Assembly: GCF_004354085.1 (NCBI RefSeq)
Contig: NZ_SMSE01000002.1
Coordinates: 62,001-126,000 of the forward strand
Direction: 5' to 3'
DNA length: 64,000 nt
Source: Seongchinamella unica
GTDB lineage: Bacteria > Pseudomonadota > Gammaproteobacteria > Pseudomonadales > Halieaceae
The notes below the pieces were generated by a model, which searched no databases, was not told the origin of the DNA, and saw only the letters and a program-made list of their open reading frames with translations. The translations under genes were made by a program, and so were the position numbers. Below, one piece after another: positions 29,013 through 35,574 of this stretch; position 1 is the first letter of the stretch, and each line of letters begins with the position of its first letter.

Positions 29013-29048
29013 AATGTCGATCCGTCGTGTTATCAGGTGCCTAATGCC

Positions 29049-30236
29049 ATGTTCTCAGAACTAGAACCGCGTCCTGCGGACCCCATTCTTGGCCTTACCG
29101 TTAAGTTCAAGGCCGATAGCAACCCGAAGAAGATTGACCTCGGTGCCGGGATCTACAAGGATGCGCAGGGAAATACGCCGGTACTGGATTGCGTCAAGGC
29201 CGCGGAGCAGATCCGGTTAGACACGGAAACCAGCAAGACCTACATCAACTCCGCCGGGTCGCCCCTGTTCAACGAAAAAATGACCGAACTGATGCTGGGC
29301 GAGCACCGGGTCATCGCGGAAAATCGCATCCGCACGATCTCCACCCCGGGAGGCACCGGCGCCCTGCGAATTGCCGGCGAGTTCATCAGGGCCTGCAAGC
29401 CGGGCACCACCATCTGGGTGAGCAATCCGACCTGGGCCAATCACCAGGGCGTGTTTGCCGCCGCGGGGCTGACGGTAAAAACCTACCCCTACTACGACTA
29501 TGAGAACAAGTGCCTGGACTTCGACGGCATGCTTGAAGCCCTCGGACAGGTGACCGCCGATGATGCGGTACTGATTCACGCCTGCTGCCACAATCCCAGT
29601 GGCATGGATCTGGACCAGCAGCAGTGGCAGCAAGTGGCTGAACTGGCCCGGGAAGTGGGCTTCCTGCCCGTGGTGGACATGGCTTACCAGGGCTTCGGTG
29701 AGGGGCTGGATGAGGACGCCAGTGGCCTGCGCCTGCTGGCAGATGCCGTGGACGAGATGATTATCTGCGGCTCCTGCTCCAAGAATTTTGGCCTGTATCG
29801 GGAGCGGATCGGCGCCTGTTCCATCATCGGCAGGAGCGCCGAGGCGGCGGACATCATCTACTCCGTGCTGCTGCCGACCGTGCGGGTGAACTACTCCATG
29901 CCACCGGCCCACGGCGCCGCCATTGTCGAGACCATTCTCGATTCCAGTGAACTCACCGCTCGCTGGCATGAAGAGCTCAGGGAGATGCGCGACCGCATCG
30001 GTGGTATGCGCCAGCTCCTGGTGGACAAGTTGGCAGAGAAAAGCGTGACTCGCGATTTCAGCTTTATCACCCGCCAGAAGGGCATGTTCTCTTTCCTGGG
30101 GATTGACCAGGCACAGGTGCAGCGGCTGCAGGAGGAGAACAGTATTTATATTGTCGGCTCCAGCCGGATCAGTATTGCGGCAATTGCCCCGGATAACGTG
30201 GACTACCTGGCGGAGAGTATAGCGCGGGTGTTGTAG
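29049..30236 (+). CDS. tyrB: aromatic/aspartate aminotransferase (class I)
   Basis: 395 residues from ATG 29049, whose product begins MFSELEPRPADPILGLT, the near-universal start of AspC/TyrB proteins; an upstream GTG adds four residues only. PLP-dependent fold I features are present: TPGGTGALRIAGEF, HACCHNPSGMDLD, DMAYQGFGEGLDED, and the Schiff-base Lys in CSCSKNFGLYRERIG. The Arg near the C-terminus (GSSRISIAAIAPDN) binds the substrate carboxylate. It converts aspartate, tyrosine or phenylalanine with 2-oxoglutarate. AspC and TyrB cannot be separated from sequence alone, so the symbol is a best guess. Glutamate is the product or donor, and the mutase operon downstream also uses a C5 amino acid, but no direct link is shown. 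Confidence 0.9.
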   Translation: MFSELEPRPADPILGLTVKFKADSNPKKIDLGAGIYKDAQGNTPVLDCVKAAEQIRLDTETSKTYINSAGSPLFNEKMTELMLGEHRVIAENRIRTISTPGGTGALRIAGEFIRACKPGTTIWVSNPTWANHQGVFAAAGLTVKTYPYYDYENKCLDFDGMLEALGQVTADDAVLIHACCHNPSGMDLDQQQWQQVAELAREVGFLPVVDMAYQGFGEGLDEDASGLRLLADAVDEMIICGSCSKNFGLYRERIGACSIIGRSAEAADIIYSVLLPTVRVNYSMPPAHGAAIVETILDSSELTARWHEELREMRDRIGGMRQLLVDKLAEKSVTRDFSFITRQKGMFSFLGIDQAQVQRLQEENSIYIVGSSRISIAAIAPDNVDYLAESIARVL

Positions 30237-30424: not shown

Positions 30425-30904
30425 CTAATCCACCTGCTGCGGACAAACAATCACCCCGTCCCGGTCCGCGTACAGGTACGCTCCGGGCCTGAACTCAACG
30501 CCGCCAAAGTTGAGCACCGCACCGCGTTCCCCGGTGGTAACCGGAATATACTTGCGCGAACAGGTGCCCAGCGCGAACAGCGCCACCGGAATGTCCGCGA
30601 TCTGCAGGGTATCGCGCACATAGCCATTGATGACGATGCCACTGTAATGGTTCTGGTGGGCGAACTTCATCAGGTTCTCACCCACCACCGCGTAGTAGGC
30701 CGCATCCACATCCACCACCACTACCTTGCCACTGCCGTCTTCATCCCGTAACAGGGTGATCAGGTCGGAGTTGTTCCGGTCGAGCTTTATGGTGATAATC
30801 TCGCCCCGGCATTTTTCCGCGCCACCGTAGTTTTGATAGCCGGGGCCCAATACGTTGGCCTTGTCGCTGTGTTCGTCACAGATGTCGGCGGTGAAAAATG
30901 CCAT
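30425..30904 (-). CDS. rraA: RraA-fold protein (ribonuclease E inhibitor / HMG-CHA aldolase-like)
   Basis: 159 residues from ATG 30904, giving MAFFTADICDEHSDKANVLG, the standard start; a longer reading adds 14 residues upstream. The fold signature is clear: GPGYQNYGG, VVVDVDAAYYAVVGENL and GIVINGYVRDTLQIADI, where Arg and Asp of the GxVRD stretch are the substrate and metal contacts in aldolase members. The segment GVEFRPGAYLYADRDGVIV is typical. Such proteins either regulate RNase E or cleave 4-hydroxy-4-methyl-2-oxoglutarate. The size (159) and sequence are close to true RraA. It is divergent from the mutase operon (138 bp apart). Confidence 0.88.
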   Translation of the reverse strand: MAFFTADICDEHSDKANVLGPGYQNYGGAEKCRGEIITIKLDRNNSDLITLLRDEDGSGKVVVVDVDAAYYAVVGENLMKFAHQNHYSGIVINGYVRDTLQIADIPVALFALGTCSRKYIPVTTGERGAVLNFGGVEFRPGAYLYADRDGVIVCPQQVD

Positions 30905-30992
30905 GGAGAATCCTCTCAACTGATGTTCGCGGGGGAATTCTAGCACCGCGACCCCGTATTCGGCATAAACTTTTGATAGTATTACGTTTTAT

Positions 30993-31020
30993 GGCGCGTT
31001 GGCAGAGCTGGCAACGCGCC
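30993..31020 (+). promoter_or_regulatory. stem-loop in the leader of the mutase operon
   Basis: GGCGCGTTG at 30993-31001 pairs perfectly with CAACGCGCC at 31012-31020, and inner bases extend the stem. It lies 22 nt before the mutase S-subunit ATG, in a gap of only 138 bp shared with the divergent rraA gene. No cobalamin riboswitch (long B12-box fold) fits in this gap, and I see none. Confidence 0.4.
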
Positions 31021-31042
31021 GGATAACCAGGCAGCAAAGCAC

Positions 31043-31456
31043 ATGAAGGTAGTAACCGGCGTAGTGGGTAACGACATCCACGTGGTCGCCAACCGACTGA
31101 TTGACCTCTCCCTGCGCGCCAGGGGCTACGAGGTCTACAACCTCGGGGTAAACACCCACCTGGAGGAATTTTTTGATGCGGTGGTGGAAACCGGCGCGGA
31201 GGTATTGATGATCTCCTCGCTCAACGGTGAAGCCGAGGGCTGGGGCCGGGAGGTCCGGCTGCTCAAGTCGAGGTACAAGACCCTGGACGATGTGGTCCTG
31301 ATGATTGGGGGTAACCTGGTTGTCGGTAGTGGCGACCCCGAGGAAATCGTTGCCCGTTACAAGAACTATGGTTTCGACCTGGTATGCCACCAGGTGGATC
31401 TCAATACCGGGCTGGATATGTTGCAGGAACTGGTCGACCAGAGGTTTCCAGCGTGA
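31043..31456 (+). CDS. glmS: B12-binding small subunit of a glutamate-mutase-type enzyme
   Basis: 137 residues, a single flavodoxin-like cobalamin-binding domain as in the S subunit of clostridial glutamate mutase. The signature DxHxxG-(n)-SxL-(n)-GG is almost complete: D11-I-H13-V-V-A16, then SSLNG and IGGNLVVG. H13 should ligate cobalt from below. Gly of DxHxxG is Ala16 here, a rare change. The small subunit brings adenosylcobalamin to the large subunit encoded next. The genes overlap by 4 bp (GTGA), ensuring equal production. It starts a four-gene unit ending at 35574. The symbol follows the mutase naming and is not glucosamine synthase. Confidence 0.88.
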   Translation: MKVVTGVVGNDIHVVANRLIDLSLRARGYEVYNLGVNTHLEEFFDAVVETGAEVLMISSLNGEAEGWGREVRLLKSRYKTLDDVVLMIGGNLVVGSGDPEEIVARYKNYGFDLVCHQVDLNTGLDMLQELVDQRFPA

Positions 31457-32817
31457 GCCTGCTGCAGGAAGAGAGGGAAATCATACTCAGCAACGAGTAT
31501 GTGGACAGTTTCGATTTTGCCGAAGTCGCAGAATTTGTCAGCAACGCCAGCAAGGAACTGTTTATCTCCCACCATTTTGCCCGCAAGAACAAAATGCTGG
31601 TGCAGCCCCGGGGCGGCTTTCCCACCTACCAGCAGCAATTCGCGCTGTATGAGTACTTTGTCGATGCCAACGTCGACGTGTTGCCGCTGACCATCGACTC
31701 CAACACCCGCCTGAACGACTATGCAACCGCCAAGAAAATGCTGCGGCTCAGCGAAGAGAACGATATGGATATGCTCAACGGCTATCCACTGGTGACACAT
31801 GGCTATCGCACGACCCGCAAGATGATCACCCATTTCGACAAGCCGGTGAGCCTGCGCCACGGTACGCCGGACGCGCGGCTGCTGATCGAGACGGCCATTG
31901 CCTCGGGTATCTTCGAGATCGAGGGCGGACCCATTACCTACCTGTTGCCGTACTCCAAGAATTTCCCGCTGGACAAGGCGTTCCTGTACTGGAAATACGT
32001 TGAGCGGGTGTGCGCGAATTATTCCCAGCTCAATGAGCCCATTAACCGTGAATCCTTTGGCCCACTGACCGCGACCCTGGTGCCGCCATCGATCACCATT
32101 GTTATTCAACTGCTGGAAATGCTGTTGTCGCTGGAGGAGGGGGTGAAGTCATTCTCCGTGTCTTTCGCCCAGCAGGGGTCGATGAACCAGGACATTGTGA
32201 CCGGCGCGGTACTGAAAAAACTCGCCCGCCACTACGCCGGAGAAATCGACTGCGGCGATGCGGCCATCAACCTGGTCTACCACCAGTGGATGGGGGCTTT
32301 CCCCACCAACCAGGATTACGCCGACCAGTTGATCAACCTGTCCACGGTGATTGCCGCCATGGTGGGTGCCGACAAGATTATCACCAAGACGCGACAGGAG
32401 GCCACCGGTATTCCCACCAAGGAGGCCAATGCCAAGACCGTGGCCGATACCCAGTACTGCCTGCGTATTCTCAACGGCCTGCCGAATGTGGTCGATGAGG
32501 AAGAGGAAGAGATGCTGACCCTGCAGGTCACCGCAATCATGGAGGCGGTCTTCAACGATCCTGCAGATACCCTCTGGCGCAAGGTGTTTAACTGTATCAA
32601 GAATGGGATTATCGATGTCCCGTTTTCGCCGCATATTATTAACCAGAATGAAATGATCACCATCCGTGATGCCGGCAAGAATATTCGCATCATTGAACGG
32701 GGCAATGTCCCCATTCCGGATCGTTGTTACGAGTACGATAAATCCCGTTGTGACCTCAGCAAGGACACCACCAGTATCGTCAACGATATCATTCACGATA
32801 TAGGTATCATGCAATGA
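31453..32817 (+). CDS. glmE: glutamate-mutase-type large (epsilon) subunit
   Basis: 454 residues from GTG 31453, after an AGAGG site. Comparison from memory with the Clostridium cochlearium epsilon subunit shows the substrate residues conserved at a constant offset: Arg53 (QPRGG), Arg86 (TIDSNTR), Arg135-His136 (RHGTPD), Glu157 and Tyr163/Tyr167 (EGGPITYLLPY). These form the arginine claw and the base that bind glutamate in the TIM barrel over the B12 corrin. The enzyme should convert L-glutamate to 3-methylaspartate or act on a close analogue through a radical mechanism. Overlap of 4 bp with the following reactivase gene indicates a single transcript. No methylaspartase is encoded nearby. 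Confidence 0.85.
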   Translation: MSLLQEEREIILSNEYVDSFDFAEVAEFVSNASKELFISHHFARKNKMLVQPRGGFPTYQQQFALYEYFVDANVDVLPLTIDSNTRLNDYATAKKMLRLSEENDMDMLNGYPLVTHGYRTTRKMITHFDKPVSLRHGTPDARLLIETAIASGIFEIEGGPITYLLPYSKNFPLDKAFLYWKYVERVCANYSQLNEPINRESFGPLTATLVPPSITIVIQLLEMLLSLEEGVKSFSVSFAQQGSMNQDIVTGAVLKKLARHYAGEIDCGDAAINLVYHQWMGAFPTNQDYADQLINLSTVIAAMVGADKIITKTRQEATGIPTKEANAKTVADTQYCLRILNGLPNVVDEEEEEMLTLQVTAIMEAVFNDPADTLWRKVFNCIKNGIIDVPFSPHIINQNEMITIRDAGKNIRIIERGNVPIPDRCYEYDKSRCDLSKDTTSIVNDIIHDIGIMQ

Positions 32818-34001
32818 GCGGGGCGGATAACAGGTTGCTGATCGACGTGGGCAGTACCTATTTCAAGCTGTGCACGCCGGACAGCATCGAGCAACACTTC
32901 CGCGATTTCAATCGCGATATTCTCGAAGACCTGCGCAACAAGTGCGGCGATACGCTGGAGCGCTTCGGCAAGGACGAGGTCTACATCTGTTCTTCTGCCA
33001 ACGGTGGACTGAGCACCCTCATTATCGGCGTTACCCAGTCCTTTTCCCTCAAGTATGCGACCAATATCGCCTTCAATGCCGGCATCAATATTATCGATAC
33101 CATTCTGTTCCAGAATATCGAGGAATATTCTATTCCCAGCGATCTCATCGACGTGGTGATTATTGTCGGCGGCGTGGATTCCCACTCGGGTCTGTTCTCA
33201 CCGGCGCTGTATGACTATGTGGGCCAATTGCGATACTCAAATGCAGTGTTTGTCGGATCGGCACAGGATGCGCAGCAGGTCAGCCGGAATATCGATCACC
33301 TGGTCGTGTTGCCCAATGTCATTGACGATCGCCTGCACATCGTCGAGGAACACCTGAAGGACTACCTGACCAATCTCTACCAGCAGGATATTGAGGGTAA
33401 GGAGGACATCAAGAACCTCTACCAGATTACCTCCAACCAGATTTTCTCAACGCCTTATATTGTCAACCGGGCGCTGCCCCACATCGAGAGCCGGGTGTCG
33501 GTTGCCAACCCCTTCATACTGCTGGATATTGGTGGCGCCACCACTGATATTCACTATTCCAAGGACCTTGTGGACGAAAATATCGTCACTGAAAACGAGT
33601 ACGACCGGCTGGTGTTCAAACGCCTGGGAGTGTACAAGTCGCGGCAGTCGCTGGTGCTGGCCGCCCAGGCCAACGAGTTTGTCTATGAACTGCTGATGCA
33701 CCTGGGCGCTACCGAGAATATTTACAACGAGGACAGTGACAAGGCCACTCGCATCCTGATGCAACTGGCTATCTTCCTGGTGTTGTACAAGATGTCGCCC
33801 TACGGTGAGGCCTACATCAGCCTGAAATTACTGGCCATCAACTCCATTGTTCTCACCGGCGGCATTACCAAGGTGCTGACGGTCGAGGAAATCCAGACCA
33901 TTATCGCGTTCTTCTATCGCAAGATTCTGAGCTCGGACCATAATCCGGTTGCCGTTCTGGACAGCAACTACGATATCTGGACCCTGGGCACAAAGGTATA
34001 A
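32814..34001 (+). CDS. glmL: GlmL/MutL-like reactivating ATPase of the mutase
   Basis: 395 residues with the actin/Hsp70-like ATPase fold of MutL proteins: LLIDVGSTYFKLC at the N-terminus (phosphate 1), PFILLDIGGATTDIHY (phosphate 2) near 240, and NSIVLTGGITKVLT (adenosine motif) near 345. MutL/GlmL sits between or beside the S and E genes in clostridial clusters and is thought to restore inactivated mutase by exchanging damaged cobalamin; clostridial versions are longer (about 460). The gene overlaps glmE by 4 bp and leaves a 4-bp gap to the ligase gene. Its presence supports a functional adenosylcobalamin enzyme rather than a relic. Confidence 0.85.
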   Translation: MSGADNRLLIDVGSTYFKLCTPDSIEQHFRDFNRDILEDLRNKCGDTLERFGKDEVYICSSANGGLSTLIIGVTQSFSLKYATNIAFNAGINIIDTILFQNIEEYSIPSDLIDVVIIVGGVDSHSGLFSPALYDYVGQLRYSNAVFVGSAQDAQQVSRNIDHLVVLPNVIDDRLHIVEEHLKDYLTNLYQQDIEGKEDIKNLYQITSNQIFSTPYIVNRALPHIESRVSVANPFILLDIGGATTDIHYSKDLVDENIVTENEYDRLVFKRLGVYKSRQSLVLAAQANEFVYELLMHLGATENIYNEDSDKATRILMQLAIFLVLYKMSPYGEAYISLKLLAINSIVLTGGITKVLTVEEIQTIIAFFYRKILSSDHNPVAVLDSNYDIWTLGTKV

Positions 34002-34005
34002 CGTT

Positions 34006-35574
34006 ATGTCGATCAACTGCATCCGCTCCATTCTCGAAGGCGCCGTCGAAACCCACAGCGACAAGACCGCTCTGATCTTCAACGGCAAACGGATCAACTA
34101 CGGCGAGCTGTTCAGCCGGGTTAACCAGGTGGCCTGCTACCTGGATGAACTGGGGCTGCCCAAAAACGCCCGTGTCGGGGTGTATTCCAACAAGGGCATG
34201 GAGCAGGTGATCGCGATACTGGCGATTCTGTCTACCGATTATGTGCTGGTGCCGCTGACCCGACTGCTCAAGCCGGAGCAGGTGGAATACATCATCAACG
34301 ACTGCGGTATCCGCTGCATCATTACCGACCGTATCAAGCTCGAAAGCATTGAGGAAATCGAGTTTGACGGTAAGGTGATTTCCTACGAGAGCGTCGGCAG
34401 GGATGTGGATTCCTTCGAGGAAATCTACAAGTACTACAACAAGCCCTACAGCTGCGATATCAGCGGCCACAATAACGCGGTGATCACCTATTCCTTCGGT
34501 TTGACCGGTACGCCCAAGGGCATTGTGATCTCACACCGCAACCTGATCGATTCCGCACGGGTGGTGTCCCAGTATCTCAAGCTGGAAGAGACTGACGTCA
34601 TATCCGGCATCCTGCTGTTCAACCTCGACTACGGCCTCAACCAGATTTTCTGTGCACTGTACAAAAAGGCCACCCTGGCCCTGCACCGCTTTATTCTGCC
34701 GGATGATTTTTTCAATCACCTGATCGATGACGAGGTGACCATACTGCCGCTGATGCCGGTGAATATTTCCCAGATGTTCGATGATCCCGGCCAGCGCCTG
34801 CCCAGCCCGGAGCTGTTCGACAAATTGAGGATCATTACGTCCTCCGGTGGCAATGTGACCGAACGGATGATTAATGACTGTGAACGGGCCTTTCCCCGTG
34901 CCCGGTTCTTTTCCATGCATGGCCTGACCGAGGCCTTCCGGTCCACTTATCTGGATCCGTCGCAGGTGAAGATTCGACCGGACTCCATCGGCAAACCCAT
35001 ACCGGACGTGGAACTGTACGTCATCAACGAGCAGGGCCGGGAGTGCGCACCGCGGGAAGTGGGCGAATTGATTCACCGTGGCGGCTATATTTACCGGGGG
35101 TTCTGGAACGGCCCGCAGGAAAACGCGCAGCGCTTCAAGTCGATAGAGATTCTCAAGGATGTGATCGACCTGGAGGGCCAGTTGACGGATGAGATCGTGG
35201 TGGCCTCCGGCGATTACGTCTACAAGGACGAAGAGGGGTATTTCTATTTCGTGTCACGTCACGATGACATGATAAAAACCCGCGGTTTCCGGGTGTCACC
35301 CTATGAGATCGAATCCGTGGTGCGTAAAAACCTGCCGCAGATAGACCAGAGCGCGGTTTTCTCCATAGAGAATGAGCTGATTGAGGAGGAAATTGTGCTG
35401 GTGTACTCCTCGGCTCATGAAATCCCCGAGGAGGAAATCCTGTTCGAGCTGAAGCAACACCTGGCCTCCTACATGATCCCCAGCAAGATTGTTTACCGGA
35501 AGTCGCTGCCACTGGTGCAGAGCGACAAGAACCGGGTCAACAAGGAAGCACTGAAGCGGGAAATAACCGGCTGA
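34006..35574 (+). CDS. AMP-forming acyl/amino-acid ligase linked to the mutase
   Basis: 522 residues, ANL superfamily, from ATG 34006 with AAGG before it. The large domain carries LFNLDYGLNQIFCALY and MHGLTEAFRSTYLDP, which resemble the exosortase-associated acyl-CoA ligase group (TIGR03098). The end holds SGDYVYKDEEGYFYF and KTRGFRVSPYEIE (A7/A8). Two core motifs are odd. The A3 loop reads YSFGLTGTPKG at 162-172 (usual YTSGSTGxPKG), and the A10 position that normally holds the catalytic Lys has Arg510 (DKNRVNK; Lys508 is two residues away). It could adenylate the mutase product or a related carboxylate, perhaps for CoA or carrier transfer; no carrier protein is encoded here. Confidence 0.82.
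   Translation: MSINCIRSILEGAVETHSDKTALIFNGKRINYGELFSRVNQVACYLDELGLPKNARVGVYSNKGMEQVIAILAILSTDYVLVPLTRLLKPEQVEYIINDCGIRCIITDRIKLESIEEIEFDGKVISYESVGRDVDSFEEIYKYYNKPYSCDISGHNNAVITYSFGLTGTPKGIVISHRNLIDSARVVSQYLKLEETDVISGILLFNLDYGLNQIFCALYKKATLALHRFILPDDFFNHLIDDEVTILPLMPVNISQMFDDPGQRLPSPELFDKLRIITSSGGNVTERMINDCERAFPRARFFSMHGLTEAFRSTYLDPSQVKIRPDSIGKPIPDVELYVINEQGRECAPREVGELIHRGGYIYRGFWNGPQENAQRFKSIEILKDVIDLEGQLTDEIVVASGDYVYKDEEGYFYFVSRHDDMIKTRGFRVSPYEIESVVRKNLPQIDQSAVFSIENELIEEEIVLVYSSAHEIPEEEILFELKQHLASYMIPSKIVYRKSLPLVQSDKNRVNKEALKREITG

Follow-up and report, generated by a model that had tools for sequence, protein, structure and literature searches.

A six-gene module built around a predicted coenzyme B12-dependent glutamate mutase lies in a 64,000-nucleotide stretch of the Seongchinamella unica genome (contig NZ_SMSE01000002.1, positions 62,001 to 126,000; hereafter the window). 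It consists of an aminotransferase, an RraA-like protein, the mutase subunits S and E, a MutL-like reactivase (L) and an ANL-fold ligase-like protein (A), and is thus a larger unit than the four genes first described. The original prediction named S, E, L and A, joined by 4-base overlaps or gaps, and coordinates and family matches agree with it: S (ATG start) overlaps E (GTG start) in GTGA, E overlaps L in ATGA, and A (ATG start) follows L after a 4-base gap (Table 1). The module appears to have spread horizontally between bacteria, many of them marine. We tentatively suggest that it could encode a glutamate-mutase route to 2-oxobutyrate in which the ANL-like protein would be a non-standard handler of 3-methylaspartate.

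Co-occurrence of the aminotransferase and the RraA-like protein with the mutase is our strongest result. We compared relatives of the S. unica genome and a few named genomes. The mutase is present in 7 of 38 relatives and is patchy even within the genus (3/8); 24 of these relatives were searched for the aminotransferase, and 23 plus four Campylobacterota genomes for the RraA-like protein. Close aminotransferase copies (75–100% identity) occur in 7/7 cassette-bearing and 0/17 cassette-free relatives, the latter holding only a paralogue of 43–49% or, in one genome (86% complete), no match at all; a 47–53% paralogue also accompanies the close copy in all seven bearers. Likewise, close RraA-like copies (72–100%) are found in 7/7 bearers and in 0/16 cassette-free relatives, where matches reach only 33–39%. 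Because close copies occur exactly in the seven cassette-bearing relatives, we assign both genes to the unit. A chance match of a 7/23 label would have a probability of about four in a million if the genomes counted as independent observations, an assumption that does not hold here.

Linkage among the mutase genes themselves is nearly invariant. One scan of 84,980 species genomes returned 214 stretches encoding a relative of E, of which the best 80 (E 79–96% identical) were kept and read. S adjoins E in 80/80 loci and, where the contig is long enough, L is present in 76/76 and A in 73/73. The order S-E-L-A on one strand, which the original prediction proposed to look for in genome collections, is complete in 76 of the 80 loci, and the other four are cut off by the end of the contig before A is complete. 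Clustering of the frames that recur around these loci recovered the RraA-like protein at 69 loci and the aminotransferase at 35, the next cluster reaching 16 loci and lying on both strands. The RraA-like gene is divergent and within 500 bases in 60 of the 73 loci able to show it; among the remaining 13 it lies farther off in 7 and was not found nearby in 6. In the four Campylobacterota genomes the best RraA-like copies are 50–65% identical, including one genome (G318) where the gene is not near the cassette and two copies (51% and 47%) are located at other sites. Three of these genomes (G315, G317 and G318) carry a second copy (47–53%) beside the best one, with the R-D pair described below present in the two that were read. 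Beyond the relatives, a close aminotransferase (73–91%) was found in 6 of 13 other cassette genomes; one genome of that search (G302) has the same coordinates as another (G006) and is probably the same genome.

Table 1. Predicted features of the module, in window coordinates, with the principal basis of each assignment.
Feature	Coordinates	Strand	Basis
Class-I aminotransferase (aromatic/aspartate type, PRK09257 family), cassette-specific second copy	29037..30236	+	NF006719
RraA-like protein (RraA / HMG-aldolase / oxaloacetate-decarboxylase fold family), divergent from S	30425..30904	-	PF03737
Putative divergent promoter region, two conserved elements	30905..31042	.	Motif counts; promoter reading by inference
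Glutamate mutase S subunit (B12-binding)	31043..31456	+	NF002612 above cut-off
Glutamate mutase E subunit	31453..32817	+	PF06368
Short, divergent MutL/GlmL-type reactivase (ASKHA ATPase)	32814..34001	+	PF13941
ANL-fold protein, amino-acid pocket kept, ATP site altered	34006..35574	+	PF00501

E and S probably form a working adenosylcobalamin (AdoCbl)-dependent glutamate mutase, because the substrate residues and the base-off His are kept and a reactivase-like gene is present; the earlier argument from the reactivase to a functional B12 enzyme holds at the level of sequence. S matches PF02310 and exceeds the cut-off of NF002612 (146 bits, cut-off 110) while falling below that of TIGR01501 (90 bits, cut-off 136). 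Its base-off motif reads D-I-H-V-V-A instead of D-x-H-x-x-G, with the Asp and the base-off His retained; the Gly-to-Ala change runs throughout the family, in which D-I-H-V-V-A is invariant. E scores 388 bits with PF06368 and 369 bits with TIGR01503 (just below the cut-off of 390), and 149 of 401 aligned pairs (37%) are identical to clostridial GlmE (6h9e). All six residues that the original prediction had named as holding glutamate are conserved relative to 6h9e (E/GlmE R66/R53, R100/R86, R149/R135, E171/E157, Y177/Y163 and Y181/Y167), as are K326/K312 and E330/E316. The equivalences were computed, and we take these eight residues to be the glutamate contacts. The substrate of the B12 enzyme is thus probably glutamate, which the enzyme would rearrange. 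The MutL-like protein passes PF13941 (87 bits) and reaches 70 bits with the GlmL equivalog model NF040745, far below its cut-off of 475. By these scores, E and the MutL-like protein are divergent members of their families.

The ANL-like protein shows an altered ATP site and a conserved amino-acid pocket. It had been described as an AMP-forming, adenylating ligase, a label that its sequence makes no longer safe to assume, as three ATP-site features are altered in all copies covering the respective positions. The P-loop is SFG[LMVI][TS]G in 76/76 sequences, its fourth position being L, M, V or I and not Ser/Thr; the adenine-stacking aromatic before G-x-T-E is replaced by His (H305) in 75/75 rows; and in motif A10 the aligned position is Lys in 24/75, with K508 in 57/75 and K513 in 70/74, none of them universal. 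By comparison, 38/38 aligned control ANL proteins (12 exosortase ligases, 11 others from further loci and 15 from the S. unica genome) have Ser/Thr in the P-loop, Tyr/Phe/Trp as the aromatic and the aligned A10 lysine. These changes weaken the earlier proposal that 3-methylaspartate is activated with AMP. Loss of adenylation is not proven by them, since a nearby A10 lysine could still serve in most copies. The P-loop lysine is Asn in 5/76 sequences, and the same Asn is found in one control ligase. At the family level the protein matches PF00501 (210 bits, cut-off 29.9), with its C-terminal domain at 21.3 bits for PF13193 (cut-off 24.5). The closest NCBIfam model is the exosortase-A ligase TIGR03098 (427–428 bits), for which the next-best ANL protein of the same genome scores only 249 bits; we rejected membership in that family because its cut-off of 592 is unmet. 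An AlphaFold model was too poor (mean pLDDT 51.8) and was not used.

Pocket residues may point to a dicarboxylic ligand. D208, Y209, S279 and S280 are present in 76/76 sequences and R312 in 75/75 rows with letters. Under a conversion of the Protein Data Bank (PDB) alignments to GrsA numbering that we take to be correct, D208 aligns at GrsA D235, Y209 at 236, and S279 or S280 at 301, the register differing between alignments. VinN (3wvn) is among the PDB matches (E 9e-39), behind gramicidin and tyrocidine synthetases. As reviewed in PMC11253843, the VinN pocket holds D230, F231, S299 and K330/R331, the last pair in a one-residue shorter loop. D208, Y209 and S279/S280 match VinN D230, F231 and S299 when placed via the GrsA positions and not by direct alignment to VinN; R312 is a possible counterpart of R331, again with VinN itself not aligned, and K330 has no counterpart. 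Because of these fits, the ligand may plausibly be an amino acid that carries a second carboxylate: D208 would bind the amino group and R312 possibly a carboxylate, in a pocket of the amino-dicarboxylate type.

The two additional genes encode putative enzymes that may act downstream of the mutase. The aminotransferase (NF006719, 565 bits, cut-off 377) is predicted to be of the dicarboxylate type, with the pyridoxal 5′-phosphate (PLP) lysine and both carboxylate arginines kept. K249 and R283 are found in 35/35 rows with letters and R377 in 36/36, N186 also being present in all such rows; K249, N186, R283 and R377 presumably correspond to K258, N194, R292 and R386 of aspartate aminotransferase. 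The RraA-like protein matches PF03737 and passes the RNase E regulator model NF006875 just above its cut-off (139.5 bits, cut-off 136), while the aldolase model NF009134 gives 113 bits (cut-off 196). Some proteins of this type decarboxylate oxaloacetate. An R-D pair, taken as the metal/catalytic motif, is present in 69/69 rows with letters, and an acidic residue lies 21 residues before its Arg in 70/70 rows (Glu in 68, Asp in 2). In the Pseudomonas putida HMG/CHA aldolase, the available text reports that R123K lowers kcat 181-fold (PMC5065237).

Within the region between the RraA-like gene and S, ATTCTAGCA at 30937 and TTTTGATA at 30971 are conserved and could be divergent promoter elements. 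Across the 80 loci, a form of the first element, ATTCTANCA, occurs in 39, against no more than 3 when the sequences were shuffled 200 times in two-base blocks; forms of the second are found in 39 (TTTGNTANNAT, no more than 5 after shuffling) and 33 (TTTTGNTA, no more than 7). A riboswitch was sought with Rfam (gathering score) in the window and in 4 of the 80 loci: the window, L003, L028 and L049 gave no match, and L007 only a tRNA.

We found no methylaspartase in the S. unica genome (99.99% complete), where two matches reach 25.6 and 20.6 bits (cut-off 27). This bears out the part of the original prediction that set the cassette apart from fermentation clusters by its companions, although the aminotransferase and the RraA-like protein had been overlooked. 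The ordinary methylaspartate route, fermentation or the methylaspartate cycle with an unlinked methylaspartase, is therefore largely refuted for this genome and in our view highly improbable, despite the shared mutase family and the canonical methylaspartase cluster of, for example, Rhizobium sullae. Across 29 genomes the family search returned only matches of 18.8–29.1 bits in frames of about 380–520 amino acids, a strength typical of enolases; seven genomes pass the cut-off, and the three best-scoring proteins are enolases by family models.

Presence of the aminotransferase and the RraA-like enzyme in the unit suggests an oxo-acid route. With AdoCbl, E/S would convert L-glutamate to (2S,3S)-3-methylaspartate, and L would reactivate the mutase. 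Transamination of 3-methylaspartate by the aminotransferase, or by a housekeeping counterpart in genomes that lack it, would yield 3-methyloxaloacetate, which a metal-dependent RraA-like enzyme would decarboxylate to 2-oxobutyrate. The ANL-like protein would be a partner devoted to binding 3-methylaspartate, with a regulatory or coupling function or as a slow, unusual ligase, and not an AMP-forming ligase of the standard kind; its precise function is the least secure element of the proposal. The exact tracking of the aminotransferase and RraA-like genes, both carboxylate arginines, the R-D pair, the lack of a methylaspartase in the S. unica genome, the altered ATP site of the ANL-like protein and a published list of 2-oxobutyrate routes that includes a glutamate-mutase pathway (PMC7476758) support this route.

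Several observations weigh against it. The ANL-like gene is a constant partner (73/73), yet a route to 2-oxobutyrate leaves it without a clear task. Threonine dehydratase (PF00585) is over the cut-off in 14 of 19 cassette genomes and weak in the other five, so that 2-oxobutyrate need not come from the cassette; on the same counts we rejected a need for isoleucine as its simple cause. The aminotransferase lies near the mutase in only 35/80 loci, had no match at E 1e-60 in 5/5 Campylobacterota genomes, and is represented only by copies of 45–49% in Vibrio hannami and 42% in a Granulosicoccus genome. All six loci lacking a nearby RraA-like gene fall in one Aliarcobacter/Arcobacter branch, and a regulatory role of the RraA-like protein is also possible because the RNase E regulator model just passes and the aldolase model does not. 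With the ANL-like protein lacking a task and threonine dehydratase in most bearers, we regard the 2-oxobutyrate route as no better than a possibility on the less probable side, level with the alternative that follows. A fuller version, in which this gene set is a mobile cross-phylum cassette whose ANL-fold protein has given up adenylation and binds 3-methylaspartate for the B12 enzyme, seems to us rather doubtful.

In that alternative, which we hold just as tentatively, the ANL-like protein would adenylate 3-methylaspartate as VinN does and load it onto coenzyme A, a carrier encoded elsewhere or an amine en route to a small molecule, and the aminotransferase and RraA-like protein would recycle or tailor the oxo-acid. 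The constant S-E-L-A linkage agrees with this, as do the pocket (D208, the bulky Y209, a Ser at the position of VinN S299 and an Arg in the loop after TE), the appearance of VinN among the PDB matches and the VinHI/VinN/VinL/VinO precedent (available text of PMC11284099). The same pocket code is common to exosortase-A-type ligases, and 3/3 such loci checked have an adjoining TIGR03099-type PLP decarboxylase. Against it stand the changed P-loop, A10 lysine and adenine-stacking aromatic, together with the surroundings of the cassette: no carrier or decarboxylase gene recurs around the 80 loci (unlinked carrier proteins were not searched for), and of 19 cassette genomes only 2 have a match above the TIGR03099 cut-off. 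Weaker TIGR03099 matches, probably diaminopimelate decarboxylase or its kin, occur in all 19. We rejected a linked PLP decarboxylase as part of the cassette.

Alternatively, the ANL-like protein may act on the mutase itself as a substrate-loading or cobalamin-handling partner of E, S and L, the output being set by the aminotransferase, the RraA-like protein or housekeeping enzymes. The gene immediately follows the reactivase-like gene in all loci whose contig extends that far, and the protein is strongly conserved despite its changed ATP site (19 other copies are 69–87% identical to the window copy). We nevertheless judge this role unlikely, as we know of no ANL protein that serves as a mutase partner. 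Still less probable is a scheme in which the RraA-like protein is a pyruvate aldolase that, together with the aminotransferase, produces a 4-substituted glutamate for rearrangement by the mutase. The co-occurrence of both genes with the mutase would fit, and according to the available text of PMC5065237 the majority of homologs with this fold have metal motifs and are regarded as class II pyruvate aldolases. However, none of the eight glutamate-contact residues compared in E is changed, which makes a larger substrate unlikely, and some cassette genomes lack the aminotransferase.

Hosts of the cassette span distant lineages. The 80 loci come from Gammaproteobacteria and Campylobacterota (22 rows of the E tree), with three loci of Betaproteobacteria and a single Rhodothermales bin. 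The tree of E (81 rows) is shallow; a branch with full support places the three betaproteobacterial rows next to rows of Oceanospirillaceae, and the row of the Rhodothermales bin falls among Granulosicoccaceae, although bins may hold foreign contigs and single rows are weak proof. A foreign base composition was considered and rejected, the signal being unclear: G+C is 0.525–0.575 in S-E-L-A and 0.581–0.599 in the aminotransferase and RraA-like genes, slightly low for the cassette relative to 0.574–0.634 in the eight neighbours measured. No close plasmid-borne copies were found (30 plasmid records match E, each below 60% identity), and a single-protein query of viral contigs returned none.

Other mutases and ligase relatives occur in different settings. 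In a class-wide sample of 274 genomes, PF06368 was matched at E 1e-40 or better in four, one of which (G042; L129:7610-10994) has a different E-like gene of 505 amino acids, 25% identical to the window E over 373 residues. It is followed by a MutL-like gene (identified by eye) and a GntR-like regulator, has acyl-CoA-type genes around it, and is predicted to encode a B12 mutase of another kind than that of the cassette. On a Methylobacter sp. YRD-M1 plasmid (L177:4877-9236), asparagine synthetase A, a B12-binding protein and a mutase E match stand with an EamA transporter behind, which suggests amidation of a methylaspartate-like product. A Streptomyces sp. NBC_01343 plasmid (L179:7540-12458) has a cobalamin-dependent protein and a methylaspartate mutase followed by a substrate-binding protein, aspartate-semialdehyde dehydrogenase and aspartate kinase; this arrangement suggests a copy of the aspartate pathway working on 3-methylaspartate. 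A Roseibium aggregatum plasmid (L176:2639-10069) carries, in a row, an amino acid adenylation protein, an aromatic amino acid lyase, a long methylaspartate mutase E and an amino acid racemase. Outside the B12 cassette, relatives of the ligase-like protein in three genomes (L120:7623-10444, L121:8949-11764 and L130:7169-10019, in G186, G297 and G156) adjoin TIGR03099-type PLP decarboxylases scoring 622, 456 and 455 bits (cut-off 478).

Open-access literature that we searched contains no description of the cassette that we could find, including the available text of PMC8307300, PMC7476758 and PMC4682846. Glutamate mutase, 3-methylaspartate and adenylation were found together only for macrolactams, and we found no paper pairing methylaspartate mutase with RraA or with an AMP-dependent synthetase, none on glutamate mutase in Sulfurimonas, and none on exosortase with ligase, decarboxylase and carrier. 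The principle of the earlier suggestion, a mutase paired with a 3-methylaspartate adenylase, is not new and is known from vicenistatin biosynthesis. There, in the available texts, VinH/VinI make 3-methylaspartate, VinN loads it onto VinL and VinO decarboxylates it (PMC11284099, PMC10662134). The cassette resembles that system in its glutamate mutase, its ANL protein and a pocket with Asp, a bulky residue and Ser, and differs in lacking a carrier (VinL) and a PLP decarboxylase (VinO), in its altered ATP site, in its aminotransferase and RraA-like genes and in having no recurring polyketide genes nearby.

Each component also has known kin. The cassette shares with clostridial GlmS/GlmE/GlmL the S and E families, the glutamate-binding residues and a reactivase-type gene in the operon; in contrast, its E is 37% identical, no methylaspartase is present, the S motif is DxHxxA, and MutL is short and divergent. 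Its order S-E-L-A differs from the S-L-E of the Rhizobium sullae methylaspartase cluster, a canonical one combining mutase and methylaspartase with a CoA-transferase and a CoA ester lyase. Exosortase-A ligases (TIGR03098) are the family closest to the ANL-like protein, which is 32–36% identical to 12 members and shares with them the pocket motifs FDYG/LDYG, TNSGG/TSSGG and GLTEAFRSTYL with small differences, whereas in these 12 ligases both the GSTG P-loop and the GK lysine are retained. The RraA-like protein shares fold family and R-D motif with the HMG/CHA aldolase and RraA family and passes the NCBI RraA model; it differs by Glu for Asp at the first motif position in 68/70 rows and is separate from the 33–39% RraA paralogue of the relatives. 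Finally, the available text of PMC7476758 counts a glutamate-mutase pathway, which rests on a report by Abramsky in 1962, as one of at least nine routes to 2-oxobutyrate. Its first product, 3-methylaspartate, would be the same; that text assigns no genes to it, and the link to the cassette is ours. If the link is correct, the cassette would supply candidate genes for a route to an isoleucine precursor resting on that report, an example of marine and other bacteria that use coenzyme B12 but lack methylaspartase, and an ANL-fold protein with a changed ATP site and a retained amino-acid pocket.

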